DNA from: Methanoregulaceae archaeon PtaB.Bin056
GTDB taxonomy: Archaea; Halobacteriota; Methanomicrobia; Methanomicrobiales; Methanospirillaceae
Length of the DNA stretch: 64,000 bases
Direction: 5' to 3'
Assembly: GCA_002067095.1 (NCBI GenBank)
Contig: MVQD01000106.1
Span: forward strand, 62,001 to 126,000
Part shown: positions 30,986-43,269 of the stretch, one piece after another
How positions within the stretch are numbered: the first letter of the stretch is position 1
Layout of the letters: the number at the start of each line of letters is the position of its first letter
The notes under the pieces: generated by a model
Database searches by the model: none
What the model was told of the DNA's origin: nothing
The model's input: the letters and a program-made list of their open reading frames with translations, nothing else
Position numbers and translations under genes: made by a program

Positions 30986-32149
30986 ATGGAAGAGAGCGTC
31001 ATACGGAACGCGGGACCCGACGCAGAACTCAAATACCAGTTGAAGCTCCAGGACCTCGAGTCGCAGGTTCTCGACCTCAAGGTGAAGAACGATGAGATCC
31101 TGCGGGAGAATGCGCAGCTGAAACGCGAGAATAACCAGCTCAAGCGGATGCCCCTCTTTGTTGCGGTGGTCGTGGACCTTCTTGACAAGGGTGAGGTGTA
31201 CCTCAGGCAGCAGGGAAATAACCAGGAATACCTCACCCACGTCAACGATGAGATTTTCCGCCAGCTCAAGCCCGGAACCAAGGTTGCGGTCAACAATGCC
31301 CTCTCTATCGTGAAGATAGTCGGAAATATCTTCGACTCGAGGGTGAGAGTGATGGAGCTTGACGAGTCTCCGGAGATCACGTTCGACCAGATAGGTGGCC
31401 TTGCAAAGGAGATCGAGGAGGTCAGGGAGGCGGTTGAGTATCCCCTCACGAAACCCGAGATCTACGAGAGAGTGGGCGTGGAGCCGCCAAAGGGGATCCT
31501 CCTCTACGGTTCACCGGGCACAGGAAAGACACTGATTGCAAAGGCGGTCGCACACCAGGCAAGGGCGACATTCATCCGCATGTCAGGGAGCGAGCTTGTC
31601 CACAAGTATATTGGCGAGGGTGCACAGCTGGTACGGGAGCTCTTCTCTCTCGCCAGGGAAAAATCCCCCTCCATCGTCTTCATCGACGAGATCGATGCGG
31701 TGGGGAGTACCCGCACCAACGACGGGACTTCAGGCAGCGCGGAGGTGCAGAGGACCCTGATGCAGCTCCTGGCGGAGATGGACGGGTTCGACACCAGGGG
31801 CGACGTCAGGATCATGGCCGCGACCAACAGGGTTGACATGCTCGACCCGGCGCTGCTGCGGCCCGGAAGGTTCGACCGGGTGATCTCCATCCCCCTTCCC
31901 ACCCCTCAAGGCAGAAAGGAGATTTTAAGGATACACTCCTCGAGGATGGTCCTTGGGAACGACGTGGATCTCGACGCCATCGTGGAAATGACGGAGAACG
32001 CCACGGGAGCAGACCTCCAGGCAATCTGCAGGGAGGCAGGGATGATGGCGGTCCGGAGGGAAGCACGGACTCTCTCGCACGATGACTTCGTCAGGGCGGT
32101 TCGGAAAGTCCGGGCAGAAGTCAGCACGGACATGAGAATGTATACCTGA
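30986..32149 (+). CDS. proteasome-activating nucleotidase, paralogue 1
   Basis: PAN is the hexameric AAA+ unfoldase that feeds the archaeal 20S proteasome. The 387-residue protein has an N-terminal coiled coil (about 14-54), an OB domain (about 56-115), Walker A GSPGTGKT (175-182; Ser replaces the usual first Pro), Walker B IVFIDEID, the pore loop KYIG and the Arg-finger region RPGRFDR. The extreme C-terminus MYT fits the hydrophobic-Tyr-X gate-opening motif. A second PAN is encoded at 33375 on the opposite strand. Confidence 0.92.
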   Translation: MEESVIRNAGPDAELKYQLKLQDLESQVLDLKVKNDEILRENAQLKRENNQLKRMPLFVAVVVDLLDKGEVYLRQQGNNQEYLTHVNDEIFRQLKPGTKVAVNNALSIVKIVGNIFDSRVRVMELDESPEITFDQIGGLAKEIEEVREAVEYPLTKPEIYERVGVEPPKGILLYGSPGTGKTLIAKAVAHQARATFIRMSGSELVHKYIGEGAQLVRELFSLAREKSPSIVFIDEIDAVGSTRTNDGTSGSAEVQRTLMQLLAEMDGFDTRGDVRIMAATNRVDMLDPALLRPGRFDRVISIPLPTPQGRKEILRIHSSRMVLGNDVDLDAIVEMTENATGADLQAICREAGMMAVRREARTLSHDDFVRAVRKVRAEVSTDMRMYT

Positions 32150-33374: not shown

Positions 33375-34613
33375 TCAGGCGAACATCGCGCCAAAACCGC
33401 TCTTGTAGATATGGCGGTCGAAGTCAAGCCCGATCTTCTCGATCGCATCCAGGAAGTCCTCCTTAGAGACGGCATCCTGGTCCCTCCGGATGGCGAACAT
33501 ACCGGCCTCCATGCAGATGGCCTTGATATCGGCTCCGTTCTTCCCCTCGGTCAGGGCGGCAATCTCGGCAAGGTCGACGCTCGAATCAAGGCGCATCTTC
33601 CTTGTATGGACGTCGAGTATGGCGACCCGCCCCTGGATATCTGGGAGGGGTATCTCGATGATACGATCGAACCTGCCGGGCCGAAGCAGCGCCCGATCGA
33701 GGATATCGATGCGGTTGGTCGCCCCGATGATCTTTACGTCTCCACGCCGCTCAAACCCGTCCATCCCTGCCAGGAGCTGCATCAGGGTCCGCTGTACCTC
33801 GCGGTCACCGGAGGTGGTTGCTTCGGTCCGGGAAGCGCCCACTGCATCGATCTCGTCTATGAAGATGATCGTCGGGGCTTTCTTTCGCGCAAGGTCGAAG
33901 AGCTCGCGGACCAGGCGGGCGCCCTCCCCGATGTACTTCTGCACGAGTTCTGACCCGACCACCCGCAGAAAGTGGGCATTGGTCTCGTGGGCGACTGCCC
34001 TTGCAAGGAGGGTCTTTCCCGTCCCCGGAGGGCCGTGCAGGAGAACCCCTTTCGGGGGCTCGATCCCGATGCGGTCAAAGAGTTCGGGCTTCTTCAGCGG
34101 GAGCTCGACTGCCTCCCTCACCTCGTTGATCTGGGGGTTCAGGCCCCCGATATCGGCGTATGTCTCCTCGGGGCTCTCCACCACCTCCATGCCGTAGACC
34201 TGGGCGTCGTAACTCTCTGGGAGGACGTCGATGACCGCAAGCGACTGCTGGTTCAGCGTGCACCTGGCGCCGGGTTTCAGCTTCTCCGGGTCGATGCACA
34301 TCGAACTCCTGACCATGAACCGTGGGCCGGCACTGCTCCGCACCACCACCCTGCCATTGTCCAGCACATCGGTGACAGTCCCGATGACAAGAGGCGGACT
34401 CCTCAATTGCTCGATCTCACTCTTCAGCTTCCTGACTTCCCGCTCATACCGTATCTTCTGGGTCTCGATATACCGCTTATCCGACTCGATCTGGCGGATT
34501 TGCTCGCGCAGTTCCAGGTTGCGGGTCTCCATGTTGGTGACCCGGTCCAGGAGATAGCGGTAGAGCTCCTCAGGGTTCTGGGGTTCCTGGGGTTGGCGGG
34601 CGCTTTCCACCAT
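33375..34613 (-). CDS. pan: proteasome-activating nucleotidase, paralogue 2
   Basis: The 412-residue AAA+ protein resembles canonical PAN most closely. It has an N-terminal coiled coil (about 20-72), an OB domain, the linker [18 protein letters not shown], Walker A GPPGTGKT (194-201), Walker B IIFIDEID, pore loop KYIG and RPGRFDR. The C-terminus ends GAMFA, so the penultimate Tyr of the HbYX proteasome-docking motif is Phe. It is divergent from the aMBF1 gene with interlocked promoters. Confidence 0.93.
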
Positions 34614-34629: not shown

Positions 34630-34657
34630 AGTATATAGGGAAAAATGTCTATAAAGA
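34630..34657. promoter_or_regulatory. interlocked divergent promoters of PAN2 and aMBF1 genes
   Basis: AGTATATA at 34630-34637 fits the plus-strand TATA for aMBF1 (start near 34660). TCTTTATAG on the minus strand at 34649-34657 fits the PAN gene (start near 34628). Confidence 0.45.
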
Positions 34658-34671
34658 TGTTTGCGACGAGT

Positions 34672-35163
34672 ATGCAGTGCGAATTGTGCGGAGGAAAGAT
34701 TGTCGGCCCTTCAAAGACCGTCCGGGTGGAGGGAGCCGAGCTCGTGGTCTGCGCCAGTTGCGCCCGGTACGGGACCGAAGTGCAGAGGCCCGCAAAGCCT
34801 GAACCGCGTGCAGGGACAGGCCCCCGCGCAGGGAGACCGGTCCCCGCAAGGCGTTCCAGGGACGTTTTTGATTTGATAGAGGGCGAGATCGTTGAGGACT
34901 ACGGGGAACGCATCCGCACCGCCCGGATGGAGAGGGGCCTCTCGCAGAAGGACCTTGCGATGCAGCTCAAGGAGAAGGAGCTGCTGATCAAGAAGATTGA
35001 GAAGGGAGACCTCATCCCCGAGGACGAGGTGCGGAGAAAACTTGAGAAGGCGCTTGGCATCAGGCTGATCGACTCCCCTGCAGACGAGGAGGGGAAGCGT
35101 GGCAGCGGGAAGGTGGTCCCCACCCTCGGGGACGTGATCTCCATCAAGAAGGTCCATAAATAA
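34672..35163 (+). CDS. archaeal multiprotein bridging factor aMBF1
   Basis: aMBF1 associates with the translating ribosome and possibly the transcription apparatus. From the ATG at 34672 (MQCELCGGKI) the 163-residue protein has a zinc ribbon with two CxxC pairs (Cys3/Cys6 and the CASC pair about residue 27-30), a Pro/Arg-rich linker and a Cro/C1-type helix-turn-helix (about 80-135: ERIRTARMERGLSQKDLAM). The longer frame from 34645 would place the ATG upstream of the predicted start site. Confidence 0.92.
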   Translation: MQCELCGGKIVGPSKTVRVEGAELVVCASCARYGTEVQRPAKPEPRAGTGPRAGRPVPARRSRDVFDLIEGEIVEDYGERIRTARMERGLSQKDLAMQLKEKELLIKKIEKGDLIPEDEVRRKLEKALGIRLIDSPADEEGKRGSGKVVPTLGDVISIKKVHK

Positions 35164-35192: not shown

Positions 35193-35200
35193 TTTATATA
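35193..35200 (+). promoter_or_regulatory. TATA box for the aromatic amino acid operon
   Basis: TTTATATA predicts a start site near 35222-35224. The first long gene begins only at 35437, so the mRNA has a leader of about 210 nt, unusual for this genome. An ATG four bases after the predicted start opens a short ORF. Confidence 0.6.
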
Positions 35201-35225
35201 CTTGGTCGTTCCATTCTGTTCTTCA

Positions 35226-35273
35226 ATGCAAGGTGAGTGTTTTTTCGCCGGTGAGTGTTTTTATCTCCACTAG
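35226..35273 (+). CDS. candidate 15-residue aromatic leader peptide
   Basis: The short ORF reads MQGECFFAGECFYLH then TAG. Three Phe and one Tyr codon among 15 residues, arranged as a repeated GECF[F/Y] unit, precede the operon that makes Phe and Tyr. The ATG lies within about 2-4 nt of the predicted transcription start, so translation would be of the leaderless type. The DNA shows a 13-bp direct repeat GGTGAGTGTTTTT at 35232-35244 and 35250-35262, 18 bp apart. Attenuation by Phe/Tyr-dependent translation is an inference; the repeats could instead bind a regulator. Confidence 0.5.
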   Translation: MQGECFFAGECFYLH

Positions 35274-35306
35274 CCTGGCGCCTGCACCGAGCATCAACGA
35301 AACTGT

Positions 35307-35330
35307 GCTTCTGAACCAAAAACCAGTAGC
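35307..35330 (+). promoter_or_regulatory. weak hairpin in the aromatic operon leader
   Basis: GCTTCTG and CAGTAGC can pair with one mismatch around a 10-nt loop, 33 nt after the stop codon of the candidate leader peptide. Confidence 0.3.
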
Positions 35331-35338
35331 TGCGGCAC

Positions 35339-35380
35339 TTTTCCGCTATCCCCGCTATTTTGGTTATTTCTGGTATTTTT
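35339..35380 (+). terminator. T-rich tract, candidate intrinsic terminator/attenuator
   Basis: Runs of four, four, three and five T residues occur in 42 bases in the leader before the aromatic operon. Archaeal RNA polymerase can terminate at U-rich tracts without a strong hairpin, so this is a possible decision point. Function not shown by sequence alone. Confidence 0.3.
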
Positions 35381-35436
35381 ACTGAATTCCATCGGCCATT
35401 TCTGATACAAATGCGCTGGATGGATGGGAGTGTTAC

Positions 35437-36237
35437 ATGAGAGGAAAAGAAATTCGCCTGGAACGCATCATGGACCGGAATACCGGCAAGACTGTCATTG
35501 TCCCCATGGACCACGGGGTGACAAACGGTCCGATCGAGGGCCTGATAGACCTCGGGAGAGCAGTCGACCTGGTGGCGATGGGAGGTGCCAATGCCGTCCT
35601 CGGACACGTCGGCCTTTCTCTGTACGGTCACCGGAAGAGCGGAAGGGATGTGGGGCTGATCCTCCATCTCTCGGCAAGCACCTCTATCGGGCCTGACCCG
35701 AACGAGAAGGTGCTGGTGAACTCAGTGACGAGCGCCCTGAAGATGGGGGCCGATGCCGTCTCAATCCACGTGAACATCGGGGCCGACTCGGAGGCGCGGA
35801 TGCTCTCTGACCTCGGGCGGGTGGCCATCGACTGCATGGAGTGGGGGATGCCGCTCCTCGCGATGATGTACCCGAGAGGGAGGAAGATCGAGAACGAGCA
35901 CCAGGTCGAGCACGTCTGCCTTGCCGCAAGAGTTGCGGCAGAGCTCGGGGCCGACCTCGTCAAGACGGTCTATACAGGTGACCCGGACAGCTTCCGCCTG
36001 GTGACAAGGGGCTGCCCTGTTCCCGTGGTGGTGGCAGGCGGTTCAAAGACGACCGACCTTGCCACCCTGGAGCTGATCGAAGGGGCGATGGAAGGGGGCG
36101 CCGCCGGGATATCCATCGGCCGGAACGCCTTCCAGCACCCTGCACCAGACCGCTTTGTCAGGGCCGCGGCAGAGATCGTTCACCGGGGGTGCTCGGCGGA
36201 AGAAGCGCTTGAGATTGTGAAGGAGAAGAGAAGATGA
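35437..36237 (+). CDS. DhnA-family aldolase, copy 1 (ADH synthase / DKFP- or FBP-aldolase type)
   Basis: The 266-residue class I aldolase belongs to the family of MJ0400 (2-amino-3,7-dideoxy-D-threo-hept-6-ulosonate synthase) and MJ1585 (which makes 6-deoxy-5-ketofructose 1-phosphate). It shows [12 protein letters not shown] (Asp25), MMYPRG (Tyr) and the Schiff-base Lys in [10 protein letters not shown]. It is the first gene of the aromatic operon and overlaps copy 2 by 4 bp. Which paralogue does which step cannot be told; having two in tandem fits the two consecutive steps of the archaeal route into dehydroquinate. Confidence 0.88.
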
Positions 36238-37019
36238 TTGGAAAAGAGATTCGGATCGAGAGGATCATGGACCGGAACACCGGAAGGTCCGTGATCGTTC
36301 CCATGGACCATGGGTTCACGCTGGGACAGATTGATGGGCTGCTGGACATGACCACGACAATCTCGGAGGTGAGCGAGGGCGGGGCGAACGCCATCGTCCT
36401 GCACAAGGGGATTGTCAAACGGGGGCACCGGAGGAGGGGAAGGGACATCGGCCTCATTGTCCACCTCTCGGGCAGCACCTCGCTCAACCCGGACCCAAAC
36501 GACAAGGTGCTGGTCTGCACCGTGGAGGAAGCGGTGGCGCTCGGCGCGGACGCAGTCTCCATCCACATCAACCTTGGGGCTCCGAACGAGTCGAAGATGC
36601 TCGAGTCCGCGGGGAAGGTGGTAAAGGACTGCAACCGCTGGGGAATCCCTCTCCTCGTAATGATCTACCCGAGGGGAAAGGGCATCGATCCCAACTCGCC
36701 CGCAACTGTCGGGCACTGCGTAAGGGTGGCCGAGGAGCTCGGGGCCGATCTCATCAAGACCAATTACACAGGTGACCCGGTCTCTTTCAGAAAGATTGTC
36801 ACCTCCTGCTCGGTCCCGGTCTTTATTGCCGGGGGAGAGAAGGCCGGGGACCTCGAGACGCTCGGGATCATACGCGACTCTGTAAGGGCCGGCGGGGCAG
36901 GAGTATGCGTCGGCCGAAACGCCTTCCAGAGGGAGAACACACGGGCATTCGTCAAGGCCCTCTGCCGCGTGGTGCACGAGGAGGCAGACCCGGAACAGGC
37001 GCTCAGGGAGGCGGGATGA
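36234..37019 (+). CDS. DhnA-family aldolase, copy 2 (ADH synthase type)
   Basis: The 261-residue paralogue of the preceding gene has [22 protein letters not shown] and [10 protein letters not shown] with the Schiff-base Lys. In archaea lacking DAHP synthase, ADH synthase condenses aspartate semialdehyde with DKFP to give ADH, the substrate of dehydroquinate synthase II encoded next. The ATGA overlap with that gene makes this copy the better candidate for ADH synthase. Confidence 0.9.
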
Positions 37020-38002
37020 AGGAGTTCTGGGTGGACGCCCGGTCCTGGAATAAGGATGTCGTGACCGCCGCCCTGGAGAGCGGAGCAGATACCATCGTCG
37101 CAGAAGAGAGCGGGAAGGTGAAAGCGCTTGGGCGGGTCCGCGTGGTAGCGCCTGACGGGGACCTCGCGATTGGAAGGGACGTCTGGGAAGTGAGGATTGC
37201 AGGCAAGGAGAGCGAGGAGAAAGCAGCCCTCCTCGCAAGGAGCGGCTACGTCATCGTCAGTACGGAGGACTGGACGGTCATCCCCCTCGAGAACCTTGTG
37301 GCCCAGTCGGATCGTATCATCGCCCTGGTCCATGATGCAGGGGAAACGGAACTTGCGCTCCAGGTCCTTGAGCGGGGGGTTGCAGGTATCCTCCTCCAGA
37401 CAGGGGACCCGAAGGTGGTGAAGGATACGGGATCGGTGGTGCACTGCGGGAGTGAACGATGTGCCATCGTACCGTTCACGGTCACCGCGATCCGGCCGGT
37501 GGGGATGGGGGACCGGGTATGCGTCGACACCTGCTCGATGCTGAAGGAGGGGGAGGGGATGCTTGTAGGCAACACCTCATCTGCCTTCCTGCTCGTCCAC
37601 GCCGAGACGCTGGAGAACCCTTACGTCGCCCCGCGGCCTTTCCGAGTCAATGCGGGGGCAGTGCACGCATACATCCTCTCATCCGGCGGGAAGACGGCCT
37701 ACCTCTCGGATCTCGCGGCAGGAGACCGTGTGCTGGTGGTGGGGACCGATGGCAGTACAAGGGAGGTGACTGTCGGGAGGGTGAAGATAGAGCAGAGGCC
37801 GCTGCTCATCGTCGAGGCAGAGGCTGAGGGGAGGACCCACAGTCTTGTCCTGCAGAATGCCGAGACGATCCGCCTGGTGGGAGAAGACGGCCGTGCCCGT
37901 TCGGTCGTCGAGATCTCTCCCGGAGACCGGGTGATGGGCTGCCTCAAGGAGGCCGGCCGCCACTTTGGAATGGCGGTCAGGGAGAAGATCCTGGAGAAGT
38001 GA
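37016..38002 (+). CDS. aroB': 3-dehydroquinate synthase II
   Basis: This archaeal enzyme (MJ1249 type) oxidatively deaminates ADH with NAD+ and cyclises it to 3-dehydroquinate. From the ATG at 37016 ([15 protein letters not shown]) it has 328 residues with GVAGILLQTGDP, the VGMGDRVCVDTCSML segment, GEGMLVGNTSSAFLLVH and RPFRVNAGAVHAY, all characteristic. It overlaps aldolase copy 2 (ATGA) and precedes tyrA. Confidence 0.94.
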   Translation: MKEFWVDARSWNKDVVTAALESGADTIVAEESGKVKALGRVRVVAPDGDLAIGRDVWEVRIAGKESEEKAALLARSGYVIVSTEDWTVIPLENLVAQSDRIIALVHDAGETELALQVLERGVAGILLQTGDPKVVKDTGSVVHCGSERCAIVPFTVTAIRPVGMGDRVCVDTCSMLKEGEGMLVGNTSSAFLLVHAETLENPYVAPRPFRVNAGAVHAYILSSGGKTAYLSDLAAGDRVLVVGTDGSTREVTVGRVKIEQRPLLIVEAEAEGRTHSLVLQNAETIRLVGEDGRARSVVEISPGDRVMGCLKEAGRHFGMAVREKILEK

Positions 38003-38833
38003 TTGCAGGTGAAGATCGGGATCATCGGCGGCACCGGCAGGATGGGTGCGTTCTTCAGGAAGGTATTCGAAACGGCGGGGTGGGAGGTGCAAATTGCAGG
38101 GAGGAGCACCCCGCAGAGCCCCGCGGACCTGGCAGGGGCCTGCGATGTCGTTATGGTATCGGTGCCCATCAGGGAGACTGTCGGGGTGATACGCTCTCTT
38201 GCCCCACTCCTCTCAGAGGGCCAGCTATTCTGCGATCTCACTTCCCTGAAGACCGGGCCGGTGGAGGCAATGCTCACCTCCCGCGCACAGGTGGTGGGCC
38301 TTCACCCCATGTTCGGGCCCACCGCAAACGGCCTGCCGGGCCAGACCATCATCGCGACCCCCGCGCGCTGCAGACCCGAAACCCTCGATCTCCTCCTCGA
38401 GGTCTTTTTGTCCCAGGGGGCCAGGGTGACTATCTCCACTCCTGAAGAGCATGACAGGATCATGGCGGTGGTGCAGGGGCTGACACACTTCGTCACTCTC
38501 GGCGTGGCAGAGACGATGCGGAGAGTGGGAGTGAAGCCTGAAGATACCCTTGCATTCATGAGCCCGGTCTACCAGATGGAGATGTGTCTCGTGGGAAGGC
38601 TCCTCTCCCAGGACTCCAGTCTCTACGCCGATATCCTCGGGCAGAACCCCCATGTGATGCCGGTCATCGAGGCGTGCGAGGGCGCGTTCTCATCGCTGCG
38701 GGAGACCATCGGGACAGGGGATACCGATGCCTTCGAAGAGGTGTTTAAGAAGAACGCGCAGCACTTCGGGGATTACTGCCAGAAGGCAGCCCGGGAGTCT
38801 GACCTGCTGATCGCGTCCATGGTGAGGCAATGA
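38003..38833 (+). CDS. tyrA: prephenate dehydrogenase
   Basis: TyrA converts prephenate to 4-hydroxyphenylpyruvate for tyrosine. The 276-residue protein has the Rossmann motif IGIIGGTGRMG, VVMVSVPI, DLTSLKTGPVEAM and GLHPMFGPT. TTG at 38003 directly follows the previous stop with GGAG six bases upstream; GTG at 38009 is the alternative. No chorismate mutase or ACT domain is attached, so mutase must be elsewhere. Confidence 0.93.
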   Translation: MQVKIGIIGGTGRMGAFFRKVFETAGWEVQIAGRSTPQSPADLAGACDVVMVSVPIRETVGVIRSLAPLLSEGQLFCDLTSLKTGPVEAMLTSRAQVVGLHPMFGPTANGLPGQTIIATPARCRPETLDLLLEVFLSQGARVTISTPEEHDRIMAVVQGLTHFVTLGVAETMRRVGVKPEDTLAFMSPVYQMEMCLVGRLLSQDSSLYADILGQNPHVMPVIEACEGAFSSLRETIGTGDTDAFEEVFKKNAQHFGDYCQKAARESDLLIASMVRQ

Positions 38834-39627
38834 AGGTATTCGTACTCGGACCTGAGGGCACGTTCAGCCACGAACTGGGGTGGCGCGTATTTGGAGATCG
38901 GGTCACCCTCGTCCCTACCATCCGGCGGATATTCGAGGCAGTGGAGAAGGGGGAGGGAACAGGACTCGTTCCCCTGGAGAACAGCGAGGCGGGGGGCGTC
39001 GGGCCATCCCTGGACGGGCTGCTTCAGCACCGCGTCTGGATCACGGGAGAACTGTACATGCCCATCCACCACTACCTCGTCTCTATCCAGCCACTTGGGG
39101 AAGCGGAGGTGCTCTACGTCCATCCCCAGACCCACGAGCAGTGCAGCGAGGTCGTGGACGCCCTCGAGATACCCGTCGTGCATACCCCGAGCAATGCGCA
39201 GAGCGCGATGGAGATGCGGAGGTCGGGAAAGGGTGCGGCAATCGTGTCACTGATGACCGCCCGCCTCCATGATCTCCCGATCCGGCGTGAACGTGTGGAG
39301 AACAACCCCAGGAACATCACCCGGTTCGTGACCATCTCTCAAGCGAGGTATTCAGGCACTGGTGCGGTGAAGGGGAGCATCATCATCGATCCGAGGGAGG
39401 ACCGTGCGGGACTCCTCTTTGACATCCTCGGGATATTCTCCCGGAAGGGCATCAACCTCACCAGGATCGAGTCCCGCCCGTCAAAACGTGGCATGGGCAG
39501 TTACGTCTTCTTCCTCGATTTTGTGTACAACGGAAGGTCAGAAGAAGCGGTCCGCGAACTCAAAGCGATGACGGCAGTCAAGGACCTTGGGAGATATCCG
39601 ACGCTGGAGGTCCCGGAATGGAGGTAA
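38830..39627 (+). CDS. pheA: prephenate dehydratase
   Basis: PheA converts prephenate to phenylpyruvate for phenylalanine. The 265-residue protein has the catalytic domain (about 1-180; VLGPEGTFSHELG, PLENSEAGGV, NNPRNITRFV with the catalytic Thr-Arg-Phe) and a C-terminal ACT domain (about 185-262; GLLFDILGIFSRKGINLTRIESRPS) for Phe feedback inhibition. It overlaps tyrA by 4 bp. Confidence 0.95.
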   Translation: MKVFVLGPEGTFSHELGWRVFGDRVTLVPTIRRIFEAVEKGEGTGLVPLENSEAGGVGPSLDGLLQHRVWITGELYMPIHHYLVSIQPLGEAEVLYVHPQTHEQCSEVVDALEIPVVHTPSNAQSAMEMRRSGKGAAIVSLMTARLHDLPIRRERVENNPRNITRFVTISQARYSGTGAVKGSIIIDPREDRAGLLFDILGIFSRKGINLTRIESRPSKRGMGSYVFFLDFVYNGRSEEAVRELKAMTAVKDLGRYPTLEVPEWR

Positions 39628-40886
39628 CACTTCGAAAGGCAGAAAATGTCGACCTTCTCTTCCAGGCACCGCCCTCAAAGAGCTACACTCACAGGGCGCT
39701 GATTGCCGCCTCGCTCGCAGTAGGGGACTCGTTCATTGCAAATCCGCTGGAGGCGGAGGATACCGAGGTGACAAGAAGGGCCCTCATGGCAATGGGTGTC
39801 CGGATTACGACAGGGGACCGCTGGTTCCGGGTCGGGGGTAGAGGCGGAACGCTCTCCTGTCTTCCCGGGCTGGTTTTGGATACGCAGAACTCCGGGACGA
39901 GCATGCGGCTGCTCGCTTCAGTCGCGCTCCTTTGTAAAAGCCCCGTGGTCCTCACGGGATCCCCCCGCATGAAAGAGCGCCCGCTCGGCCCCCTGGCAGG
40001 GGCATTGACATCTCTTGGGGGGAGCATCGAGTTCCTGGAGAAGGAGGGGTTCCCCCCGGTCAAAGTCTCAGGCGGGCTTGCCGGGGGGTATGCGCGGGTG
40101 GACGCTGGTATGAGCAGCCAGTTCGTCTCCTCGATCCTGATGGCGGCGCCGTATGCGCACCGGGACGTGACCCTTGAACTCGATCCGGGTGTTGCCTCGC
40201 CCTCGTACCTGGACGTGACACTCTCGGTGATGGAGGCCTTTGGAGTGACGGTGGAGCGGGAGGGATACCGGCGTTTCCGGGCAGCTGCCGGGAGACCGTA
40301 CAGGGCAAGGACGTACGAGATCGAGGGCGATTACTCTTCTGCCTCGTACTTCTTTGCACTTGCCGCACTCTGCGGCGGCAGGGTACGCGTCGGAAACCTG
40401 AACCCCTCTTCCTGCCAGGGGGACAGGCGGTTCCTGGGGGCACTCGAGTCGATGGGATGCAGAGTGAGGGGCCTTGGAGAGTCGGTCGAGGTCTCCTGCG
40501 AGGGAGACCTGGATGGGATCGAGATCGACATGTCCTCCTCGCCGGATACGGTGCAGACACTCTGCATGGTCGCATCGAAAGCCAGGGGTCCGACCAGAAT
40601 ATCCGGGATCGCCCACCTCAGGTGGAAGGAGACCGACCGCCTGGAGTCTACCGCGAGGCTCCTCCGGAGCCTTGGGGGCGATGTGAGCATCGAGAAGGAC
40701 GCACTCATGATAAGGCCCTCCCCGCTGCACGGGGGAACGATAGACCCTGGCGACGACCACCGGACCGCGATGAGTTTTGCGGTCCTCGGACTTTCGATGG
40801 GAAACGTAAAGATAACCCAGGCGGAATGTGTCAGTAAATCCTTTCCGGGGTTCTGGGAGCAGCTTGCGGGGCAGGGACTTGTATGA
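39618..40886 (+). CDS. aroA: 3-phosphoshikimate 1-carboxyvinyltransferase (EPSP synthase)
   Basis: AroA joins shikimate 3-phosphate and PEP. The 422-residue protein shows the two-domain inside-out barrel signatures: PPSKSYTHRALIAASLA near the N-terminus, LDTQNSGTSMRLLAS, GSPRMKERPLGPL, and IAHLRWKETDRLEST in the C-terminal half. It overlaps pheA by 10 bp and the following fusion gene by 4 bp. Confidence 0.96.
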   Translation: MEVTLRKAENVDLLFQAPPSKSYTHRALIAASLAVGDSFIANPLEAEDTEVTRRALMAMGVRITTGDRWFRVGGRGGTLSCLPGLVLDTQNSGTSMRLLASVALLCKSPVVLTGSPRMKERPLGPLAGALTSLGGSIEFLEKEGFPPVKVSGGLAGGYARVDAGMSSQFVSSILMAAPYAHRDVTLELDPGVASPSYLDVTLSVMEAFGVTVEREGYRRFRAAAGRPYRARTYEIEGDYSSASYFFALAALCGGRVRVGNLNPSSCQGDRRFLGALESMGCRVRGLGESVEVSCEGDLDGIEIDMSSSPDTVQTLCMVASKARGPTRISGIAHLRWKETDRLESTARLLRSLGGDVSIEKDALMIRPSPLHGGTIDPGDDHRTAMSFAVLGLSMGNVKITQAECVSKSFPGFWEQLAGQGLV

Positions 40887-42268
40887 ACGTCGTGCTGATT
40901 GGTTTCCGGGGGACGGGGAAGACCGAGTCGGGCAGGCTGCTCGCTCACCTCCTCGACGTCCCTTTCTATGACACCGATGCGCTTGTCGAAGAAGAGGCAG
41001 GTGCCACGGTCCACGAGATCTTCGAACGAGAGGGGGAGGCCGGGTTCAGGGAACGCGAGAAACGGGCGATCGCAGGTCTCCCGCGCGGTCCCGGGGTATT
41101 TGCCACCGGGGGAGGTGCGGTCATCGACCCAGAGAACGTGGAGCATCTTCGTCGGGGGAGAACGATGGTCCTCCTCCAGGCAGACGAGGTGACCATCGAG
41201 AAGCGCATCCAGCACGGCAATCGCCCCGCGCTGACCAGGATGGGCTTGCGAGCCGAGATCCATGCCCTCCTCGAAGCCCGGAAGGACGCGTACCTTGCTG
41301 CGGCAGACTACTGTATTGACACCAGCGCCCGGAGTGCAAATGAGGTCGCGATCGGTATCAAGCGCCTGCTTATGGAGGGGGGAACAAAAGAGAGAGCGAC
41401 GAGGGAGGCGCTTCGGGCGGTTGCAGGATCAGGTATCCTGCGGCAGGAGGCGGAGGATCTTGCAGCCAGAGTTGACGCCCTTTCCGAAAACCCGGTCCTC
41501 AGGATCTTCGGTATAGCGGGGTACCCGTGCCTGCACAGCAGAAGCCCCTCCCTCTTTCAGCACCTCTTCTCCTACTTCGAGATCAATGCATATTACACCA
41601 GGTTTCATGACCCGTCACTCACCCGGATACTGGGAATCGCGAGGGACCTCGACGTGCGCGGCCTCTCGGTGACGATCCCGTTCAAACAGGAGATCCAGAG
41701 GCACCTTGACCACATGGATGCCCACAGCAGGGCAATCGGGGCATGCAACACCGTTGTCTTCTGCGGGGGGGAGTCCCATGGCTACAACACCGACTGGATA
41801 GGGATCAGGGATCCCCTGGGACCCCTTCGCGGGAGCAGGGCAGTGATCCTCGGTGCCGGGGGTGCCGCAGCTGCCGCGGCATATGCCCTCCTGTCGCTAG
41901 ACATGGAGGTCACGCTCCTGAACCGGACGGTCGAGCGGGCAGAGAGTCTCGCTGCGCGCCTGGGCTGCCAGTATGGCTCGATCCGCGACTTCGGCAGCGT
42001 CAGGCCTGAAGTGGTGGTGAATGCAACCCCTGTAGGGATGGAACCTGATACGGCGAGTCCCCTCCAAAAGTCGGACCTTGCCCCCGGCATGACGATCTTC
42101 GATCTCGTCTACACGCCCCCCGAGACACCCCTGATAAAGGCTGCCAGGGACGCCGGTTGCACCGTGATTTCCGGCAGGGAGATGTTCATCCGGCAGGCAA
42201 GAGCCCAGTTTCGCCAGTTCACCGGCATCGATGCCCCGCTCGGCATGATCAGGGAGATCCTGGGATGA
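40883..42268 (+). CDS. fused shikimate kinase (AroK type) - shikimate dehydrogenase
   Basis: Two successive shikimate enzymes are joined in 461 residues. Residues 1-165 are a bacterial-type P-loop shikimate kinase: Walker A GFRGTGKT (7-14), DTDALVEE (shikimate-binding Asp), FATGGGAV and the lid Arg in RPAL. Residues about 203-461 are AroE: SRSP (219-222), TIPFK with catalytic Lys268, NTDWIG with Asp304, and the NADP motif [13 protein letters not shown]. Most archaea use a GHMP-type shikimate kinase instead. A helical linker (about 166-202) joins the halves. The frame is uninterrupted, so the fusion is real in this sequence. Confidence 0.94.
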
Positions 42269-43269
42269 ATACGTTCGGCCGCTCGTTCCGGATCACCACC
42301 TTTGGTGAGAGCCATGGCCCCGCGCTGGGTGTCGTGATCGACGGGTGTCCTCCCGGGATCGCGCTCGCCATTGAGGATATCCAGCCGTTCCTGGACAGGA
42401 GAAGGCCGGGGCAAAGCCCGCTCATGTCACCCCGCCGGGAGGAGGACCGGGTCGAGATCATCTCAGGTGTCTTTGAGGGGAGGACCACGGGAGCGCCGGT
42501 TGCCCTCATCGTGAGGAATGCCGATTCCCGGCCTGGAGACTACGAGGCGCTCAGGGAGGTGTTCAGGCCTGGCCACGCGGATTATACCTGGTGGAAAAAG
42601 TACGGCATACGTGACCACCGTGGCGGCGGCAGGAGTTCTGGCCGCGAGACAGTCGCCCGGGTTGCATCAGGAGCGGTGGCGGCAAAGGTGCTTGGACTCC
42701 GGGGCATCAGGATAGGGAGCCGGATCCTCGAGGTCCACGGCTGCACAAGCCCGGAAGATATGGAGAAAGCGATAGAGCGTGCGATGCAGGCCGGAGATTC
42801 TGTAGGGGGAATCGTTGAGATCACCGCGAGTGGATGCCCCCCCGGCCTCGGCGACCCGGTCTTTGGGAAGCTCGATGCCATGATTGGGATGGCAATGCTC
42901 TCCATCGGCGCTGTAAAGGGCGTTGAGATCGGGGAAGGTTTTGCCGCAGCGAGAATGCGGGGGAGCGAACAGAACGACCAGATGGATGAGGAGGGCTTCC
43001 TCTCCAACCATGCGGGCGGGATCCTGGGGGGTATCAGCACGGGTGCAGATATCGTGGTGCGTATCGCGGTAAAACCGACCCCTTCGATCGCCCGGGAGCA
43101 GCGGACGGTTGACGTGGAAGGGAGGGAGCGTGCGATCTCGGTTCGCGGAAGGCATGACCCCTGCATCGTTTTCCGGCTGGCCCCCGTTGCGGAGGCGATG
43201 CTTGCCCTCGTGCTTGCCGATGCGCTGCTTCTGCAGGAAGGGACAAGGGCCTGGGCCTCGCAGGGATGA
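42265..43269 (+). CDS. aroC: chorismate synthase
   Basis: AroC eliminates phosphate from EPSP to form chorismate with reduced FMN. From the ATG at 42265, which overlaps the previous stop (ATGA), the 334-residue protein shows [43 protein letters not shown] and [10 protein letters not shown]. It is somewhat short for the family, which is common in archaea. It is the last gene of the tightly overlapping operon. Confidence 0.96.

Follow-up and report, generated by a model that had tools for sequence, protein, structure and literature searches.

What does a 15-codon open reading frame with a repeated aromatic unit do in front of an archaeal operon for the synthesis of phenylalanine and tyrosine? 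Control of amino-acid synthesis in archaea is thought to rest mainly on DNA-binding proteins. The locus considered here lies in a 64,000-nucleotide stretch of DNA (the whole of the DNA analyzed, hereafter the window) from Methanoregulaceae archaeon PtaB.Bin056. An earlier, sequence-only reading of the window proposed attenuation by translation of the aromatic codons in this ORF. The comparison of orthologous leaders that it suggested as a check gave a positive outcome over 138 leaders, which strongly supports the core of the idea, but the anatomy differs from the one proposed. The ORF appears to be only the zero-frame half of a longer leader, and the main sensor appears to be an aromatic-rich tail in the +1 frame, with strong support for the leader, the tail, and the switch of frame. 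The best explanation, and in our judgment a likely one, is a leader acting in cis, in which programmed +1 ribosomal frameshifting serves to sense Phe and Tyr.

The leader, its operon, and its relatives

The features of the locus are collected in Table 1. Because the TATA box stands only 33 nt before ATG 35226, the leaderless start that had been proposed for the ORF is plausible, and this ATG is probably the 5' end of the transcript; the same spacing is 28-36 nt in nearly all relatives' leaders. From the ATG, the zero frame reads ATG CAA GGT GAG TGT TTT TTC GCC GGT GAG TGT TTT TAT CTC CAC TAG, and so the ORF and its repeated aromatic unit are as previously described, but they make up only the first half of the leader.

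Table 1. Features of the leader locus, with positions counted in the window
Feature	Position	Strand	Remarks
MBF1-like upstream gene	34645..35163	+	zinc-ribbon-like N-terminus and helix-turn-helix; Pfam gives HTH_3 only, MBF1 by domain layout
TATA box TTTATATA	35193..35200	+	5' of leader ATG; from sequence
Zero-frame leader ORF MQGECFFAGECFYLH	35226..35273	+	ATG to TAG; 15 codons; TAG at 35271-35273
Frameshift unit 1 (candidate)	35232..35249	+	SD-like GGTGAG, TGT, P-site TTT 35241-35243, A-site TTC (Phe) 35244-35246, GCC
Frameshift unit 2 (candidate)	35250..35267	+	SD-like GGTGAG, TGT, P-site TTT 35259-35261, A-site TAT (Tyr) 35262-35264, then C
+1-frame leader segment, ATC TCC ACT AGC ... TAC TGA	35263..35385	+	40 codons plus stop; would be entered after a shift at site 2
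Aromatic tail TAT TTT GGT TAT TTC TGG TAT TTT TAC (YFGYFWYFY)	35356..35382	+	abuts TGA 35383-35385
Hairpin 3' of tail stop	35388..35424	+	3' arm abuts SD GGGAG (35426-35430) of first gene; fold and z-scores
First operon gene, DeoC/LacD-family aldolase (ADH synthase, AroA')	35437..36237	+	Pfam PF01791
Operon remainder: second AroA'-like aldolase, DHQ synthase II, tyrA, pheA, EPSP synthase, aroK-aroE fusion, aroC	36234..43269	+	Pfam, ORFs

Pfam confirms that the operon downstream carries tyrA (prephenate dehydrogenase) and pheA (prephenate dehydratase), as had been recognized, and also aroC (chorismate synthase). The tandem of AroA'-type aldolases at its head (35437-37019, ∼55% mutual identity) leads the operon in nearly all Methanomicrobiales examined. 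Further down, the ORF at 40883-42268 encodes a bacterial-type shikimate kinase (SKI) fused to shikimate dehydrogenase; the shikimate kinase of archaea is usually of the GHMP type. On the upstream side, two proteasome-activating-nucleotidase-like AAA ATPases of differing sequence, judged by eye, lie close by (30986-32149 on the forward strand and 33375-34613 on the reverse strand). In 71 of the 98 leaders for which this could be tested, the MBF1-like gene lies directly 5' of the leader in the same orientation. In yeast, Mbf1 keeps stalled ribosomes out of the +1 frame, and archaeal MBF1 binds ribosomes (PMC6301793). We do not tie this neighbor to the frameshift, since the same neighborhood is also present in several lineages whose leaders have a single fused frame (see below), and we treat it as a lead, not as evidence, for a role in the leader system.

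The upstream regions of relatives were gathered by genome search, direct extraction, and a pattern scan of named genomes. The scan matched Methanoculleus, Methanolinea, Methanocalculus, Methanofollis, Methanoregulaceae, and Methanomicrobiaceae, along with a few unrelated bacteria, as by chance. After duplicate removal there were 148 upstream regions, 139 of them with an aromatic tail candidate according to an automatic picker that is blind to frame. One of these candidates, L060, is not a leader, which leaves 138 distinct Methanomicrobiales leaders, all before the same operon. Orthologous leaders lacking an aromatic-rich ORF, which would have spoken against the original idea, were not seen within the order except in the genus g2 (L060 and L061 were read), which carries the second aldolase paralogue only. 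None of 22 aro upstream regions taken from other orders has the same tail. There, the background tail score was 1-4 of 12, and a single score of 6 (L283) came from low-complexity DNA. No relatives of the leader were found in viral contigs, and the two other copies of the shift site in the genome itself both apparently lie within other genes. A search of Rfam with the window leader and with L002, L022, L029, L044, and L053 gave no match at the gathering score.

Two frames and the tandem candidate slip sites

The leaders fall into two classes. In the larger class, which we call the shift class (119 leaders, 112 found automatically and 7 by hand), the ATG sits where the transcript is expected to start, and the frame-0 stop comes 1-13 codons past the Tyr codon of the second repeat. 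The tail is in the +1 frame relative to the ATG in all 119 (automatically in 110 of 112, the other two being picker errors that were found to be +1 by hand). This relation is kept at very different lengths: the distance from the slip site to the tail stop takes 27 different values over 110 clean leaders, and every one is 1 mod 3. Between slip site 2 and the tail stop, stop codons occur in frame 0 in all 112 leaders compared and in frame +2 in 98, while the +1 frame has them in none. Upstream, frame 0 has its ATG and is stop-free as far as slip site 2 in 111/111 resolved leaders, and no leader among these 111 has a +1 stop between sites 1 and 2.

In the window, the +1 frame, in the register of GTG 35233-35235, is open through both repeats down to TGA 35383-35385 and closes CGC TAT TTT GGT TAT TTC TGG TAT TTT TAC TGA, that is, RYFGYFWYFY-stop; the tail thus ends in RYPRYFGYFWYFY-TGA. 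The "serial T-tracts" that had been noted at 35339-35380 are really the aromatic codons of this frame. The trans-frame peptide predicted from the window leader would be MQGECFFAGECF-ISTSLAP.... Across the leaders, Phe, Tyr, and Trp make up a fraction of 0.5-0.8 over the last 9 codons and ∼0.02 at codons 26-40 before the stop. Aromatic tail codons that have been substituted remain aromatic in 50% of cases versus 26% expected (sd 2.2%), a value reached by 0 of 300 random placements. The sequence-only reading had proposed that Phe/Tyr codons and frame should be conserved while third positions change. The frame and the aromatic codon class are indeed kept, but the third-position test (77, 109, and 86 differences at positions 1, 2, and 3) is uninformative for the tail because Phe-Tyr exchanges hit position 2, and so the aromatic-class test was used instead. 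The tails prefer TTT over TTC (343:141) and TAT over TAC (328:63), the reverse of the window genes (34:79 and 23:53), which could reflect slower codons or a demand for U-rich RNA. As a separate matter, the U-rich tail RNA (35339-35380 and its counterparts in relatives) may matter for archaeal termination or 3'-end cleavage. Altogether, it is almost certain from this comparison that a conserved, translated leader with an aromatic tail precedes the operon.

What connects the two frames? The motif GGTGAGTGTTTTT is present exactly twice in the window, 18 nt apart, which is more than chance, and it is kept across the order Methanomicrobiales. The 18-nt repeat unit has the layout GGTGAG-xGY-YTT-(aromatic codon), and the pair of repeats resembles two +1 frameshift sites set out as in bacterial release factor 2 (RF2). 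At both sites, the P-site codon is TTT or CTT and the next base is T in 111/111 resolved leaders. In the same 111, the A site of the first unit holds a Phe codon (TTC or TTT) and that of the second a Tyr codon (TAT or TAC). The automatic search pattern itself demanded the Tyr codon, but the 7 hand-found leaders outside the pattern have it as well. Counted from the P-site codon, the GGTGAG core occupies -9 to -4, which is the RF2 spacing. Given a 16S 3' end of GGAUCACCUCCU, the predicted energy of anti-SD pairing is lowest (-6.7 to -6.9 kcal/mol) at -12 to -9 relative to the same codon; the 16S 3' end GGATCACCTCCT was confirmed in the relative L290, the window's own assembly being incomplete. 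UUU is commoner than CUU as the P-site codon here, which counts against the frameshift explanation. For +1 shifting in bacteria, CUU_U is the most efficient, and UUU_U is weaker and found in a small minority of RF2 species (Atkins et al., PMC5009743). A third unit of 18 nt, with no YTT slip codon, is inserted in about two dozen leaders and preserves the frame. Leaders with this third unit include L063-L065, L041, L050, L179-L193, and others, for example MQDECHSIHEGFFARECLYLH.

Variation within the repeats also follows codons. The two-unit leaders contain 52 distinct versions of the 40-nt motif block, which differ at the third and first codon positions of frame 0 but hardly at the second. Those at position 3 are synonymous in frame 0 (GAG/GAA, TGT/TGC, TTC/TTT, TAT/TAC), and those at position 1 are largely synonymous in +1. 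This pattern is the one expected of two overlapping coding frames, and it would fit use of site 1 as well, since a shift there puts unit 2 in +1. By itself, the pattern would also be compatible with a second start.

The smaller class consists of 19 fused leaders (L033, L034, L038, L044, L049, L052-L054, L056, L168-L175, L194, and L201), in which the slip site is gone and the ATG and tail share one frame. Their N-terminus is often MCGE or MRGE, as in the shift class. On the aldolase tree, they occur in about five lineages (5 changes, at least 3 of them forced by well-supported branches). The most telling case is a group supported by the tree that joins the shift-class leaders L027 and L068 with the fused leaders L033 and L034. 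L027 reads ATG CGT GGT GGA TGC CTT TTC GCC CCT GGT TGC CTT TAT CGC GCC TAG, and L033 reads ATG CGT GGT GAA TGC CTT TCC GCT CCC GGT TGC CTT ATC GCT GAG. Comparing CTT TAT CGC with CTT ATC GCT, a single T is missing from L033 exactly at the predicted slip position, and the product is equivalent. The loss of this T hard-codes the shift. Of all the observations, it argues most strongly for a single product made of the ATG frame and the tail, and against a separate start at the GTG. We consider it very probable on these comparative grounds that the two frames are joined by +1 frameshifting.

Proposed mechanism, output, and alternatives

What the sequence itself shows is the pair of frames with their fixed +1 relation, the layout of the slip sites, the identity of the hungry codons, the aromatic tail, and where the hairpin lies; from this we infer that the shift occurs, that a shortage of charged tRNA gates it, and how it acts on the operon. 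Transcription would begin at or beside the ATG, with the ribosome starting the leaderless ORF in frame 0. At each site, GGUGAG would pair with the 16S 3' end while YUU occupies the P site and an aromatic codon the A site, the input being Phe through UUY at the first site and Tyr through UAY at the second. When charged tRNA is plentiful, the aromatic codon would be read and the ribosome would end at the frame-0 stop a few codons later. When Phe-tRNA or Tyr-tRNA is short, the ribosome would wait, and the P-site tRNA could slip from YUU to the overlapping UUU. Translation would then go on in +1 across a nearly aromatic-free stretch into the Phe/Tyr/Trp run before the stop. A ribosome slowed on this tail would block the hairpin that starts at the stop codon, freeing the operon through its ribosome-binding site, through continued transcription, or both.

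The hairpin fits this arrangement. The segment between the tail stop and the first gene is more stably folded than shuffled versions of it (mean z -1.67 in 135 leaders); the region from the motif to the tail, where a weak hairpin had been suggested at 35307-35330, folds no better than shuffles (mean z -0.21, 109 leaders). The 5' arm lies at a median of 4 nt from the first base of the stop in 126 short-spacer leaders and 3 nt in long-spacer leaders, while the 3' arm lies anywhere from 0 to 169 nt from the gene start. The constancy of the first distance and the variability of the second tie the hairpin to the leader stop rather than to the start of the gene, which is what control by a ribosome on the tail would predict. 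Covariation is weak, with three pairs changed on both sides among 19 sequences of one cluster. A parked ribosome is predicted to open the SD only to a modest extent, the mean unpaired value rising from 0.34 to 0.48, with an increase above 0.2 in 52 of 123 leaders and a decrease above 0.2 in 13.

Sequestration of the SD as the sole output was considered and set aside: its support is partial, and it is impossible in long-spacer genomes, where the hairpin is far from the SD. Pairing of the region 5' of the tail with either hairpin arm showed no excess (mean z 0.05 to 0.21); a scheme built on a single hairpin would not require mutually exclusive antiterminator pairing. No intrinsic terminator (hairpin plus T-run) was found in the window leader by a bacterial consensus that may not suit archaea, in which termination rules differ from bacterial ones. 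The output may be translational, transcriptional, or both, and the hairpin-mediated step as described above is offered as tentative.

How much of the sensing belongs to the shift and how much to the tail? It is possible that a fixed fraction of ribosomes shifts constitutively, driven by the SD, so that the shift sets the ribosome number and the tail alone senses amino acids. The fused leaders favor this, as about five lineages do without any shift and the tail alone can therefore sense; in addition, SD stimulation is a major driver of RF2 +1 shifting (PMC5009743). However, a constitutive shift leaves unexplained why every resolved leader has a Phe codon in the A site of the first unit and a Tyr codon in that of the second although other codons would suffice, and why the stretch from slip site to tail is nearly devoid of aromatic codons. 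We regard the constitutive explanation as unlikely. Since the tail can work without a shift in the fused lineages, the shift may act as an additional gate, or it may do no more than set the throughput; gating of the frameshift by starvation is, in our view, fairly probable. The complete proposal of a "hungry codon" sensor, with tandem +1 sites tuned to Phe-tRNA and Tyr-tRNA, a stalling run in the second frame, and control of the Phe/Tyr operon throughout the order, is one that we marginally favor.

The two frames could instead be translated from independent starts, a frame-0 micro-ORF plus a separate +1 ORF beginning at the GTG (or ATG) of the repeat, without any frameshift. Retention of an [A/G]TG in the +1 frame at unit 1 in 111/111 leaders is in keeping with this, as is the constraint on the motif block in both frames. 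In the fused leaders, however, the GTG frame stops at once or leads elsewhere (in L056, GTG AAA GCA GGC ATA TGA), and it is the ATG frame, with the same N-terminus MCGE or MRGE, that gets to the tail. Moreover, only 7 nt would separate the GTG from the 5' end and no SD precedes it, and 52 of the 111 leaders offer no additional start codon ahead of the tail. Independent starts are accordingly quite improbable.

If the frames are joined by a +1 frameshift, the logic could still run in the opposite direction, with ribosomes that enter the tail repressing the operon, for example when a stalled ribosome blocks the start of the first gene. The tail stop of short-spacer leaders is just ∼35-66 nt before the ATG of this gene, and the output step is itself inferred. 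Yet a shortage of end product should increase synthesis, not decrease it, and the hairpin stays with the tail stop even where the gene start is distant; we find repression very improbable. Slippage of RNA polymerase on T-runs, giving mixed transcripts of which some have joined frames, is suggested by the run lengths, often six Ts at site 1 and five at site 2, but the runs are short in many leaders (only three Ts at site 2, C-TTT-A, in 35/111; four at site 1 in 9/111), and slippage leaves the SD-like GGTGA and the codon identities without a role, which makes it highly improbable. The proposal that a regulator binds the 18-nt direct repeats as its DNA operator, with the peptides incidental, draws on a near-perfect repeat adjoining the promoter, but we reject it as extremely unlikely, given that the repeat is downstream of the likely transcript start, that its variation tracks the codon positions of two frames, that extra units of 18 nt keep the frame, and that the aromatic tail, although far from the repeat, is in a fixed frame to it.

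Relation to known systems

The closest parallel to the slip sites is bacterial RF2 (prfB), which shares an SD-like element at -9 to -4, one codon, YUU_U, and a slow A-site codon, usually followed by C. It also shares a short zero frame followed by a stop, and the RF2 shift answers an A-site shortage, as we propose for the leader. Here, in contrast, the slow position holds a sense codon for Phe or Tyr in place of UGA, there are two tandem sites, and the ribosome is archaeal. The product is a leader peptide that would control a biosynthetic operon in cis, and no release factor 2 is encoded. With E. coli pheL-pheA attenuation, the leader shares a short ORF carrying a run of codons for the regulated amino acids before a hairpin, ahead of biosynthetic genes. 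Unlike pheL, it is archaeal and apparently leaderless and would need a +1 frameshift in most species, and no T-run terminator or competing hairpins were found. Frameshifting has been reported at pheL and is regarded as incidental (PMC5009743). At ermC, ribosomes that frameshift on the leader ORF enter the spacer, unfold the mRNA, and allow downstream expression (PMC5009743). The ermCL shift is drug induced, whereas the inducer proposed here is amino-acid shortage at conserved hungry codons, and a conserved aromatic tail in the second frame likewise sets this leader apart from ermCL.

Within archaea, a 2021 review of recoding lists a single reported frameshift, which occurs in Saccharolobus and is of the -1 kind; +1 shifting appears there only as a suggestion for a virus (PMC8211752). 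The alpha-L-fucosidase of Saccharolobus solfataricus (-1) and virus HSTV-2 (+1 predicted) thus have archaeal recoding in common with the leader, but they concern enzyme or virion genes without sensing. Archaeal genes for aromatic amino acids are known to be controlled by the DNA-binding proteins TK0271 and TrpY (PMC6737238); the leader described here would act in cis. According to a review, there are no known examples of starvation-induced frameshifting that yields starvation-specific trans-frame products (PMC5009743). The sequence-only reading had held that attenuation by leader translation is not an established mechanism in archaea, and we likewise found no archaeal leader-peptide attenuator described in the open-access literature; subscription journals were outside this scope, and we make no claim of priority. 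The parts are known, and it is their combination, the amino-acid input, and the domain of life that appear to be new.

If the proposal is true, ribosome-based attenuation exists in a second domain of life, and this would be the first leader-peptide attenuation in archaea within the literature searched. It would also join RF2-type +1 frameshifting and pheL-type attenuation in one sensor with separate inputs for Phe and Tyr. Whether cells make deliberate use of hungry-codon frameshifting is an old open question, which becomes testable on ∼210 nt of DNA, with ∼119 natural variants and 19 fused-frame natural controls at hand.

Could tryptophan have a sensor of its own? No run of Trp codons, and so no Trp-rich leader, was found at the trp operon. 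Among 30 trpE loci of relatives (L234-L263), ∼25 share GGTG-ATG-CCN-[GC]TG-GA[AC]-TGG at the gene start. This motif forms an out-of-frame micro-ORF, MP[V/L][E/D]W..., in which the Trp codon and the apparent start of trpE overlap (ATG-G, or, in the Methanolinea group, CTG-G). In L262 (around 1363) and L238 (around 1354), the frame of the micro-ORF extends to a leaderless-looking ATG. The micro-ORF is possibly a Trp-sensing companion of the Phe/Tyr leader.
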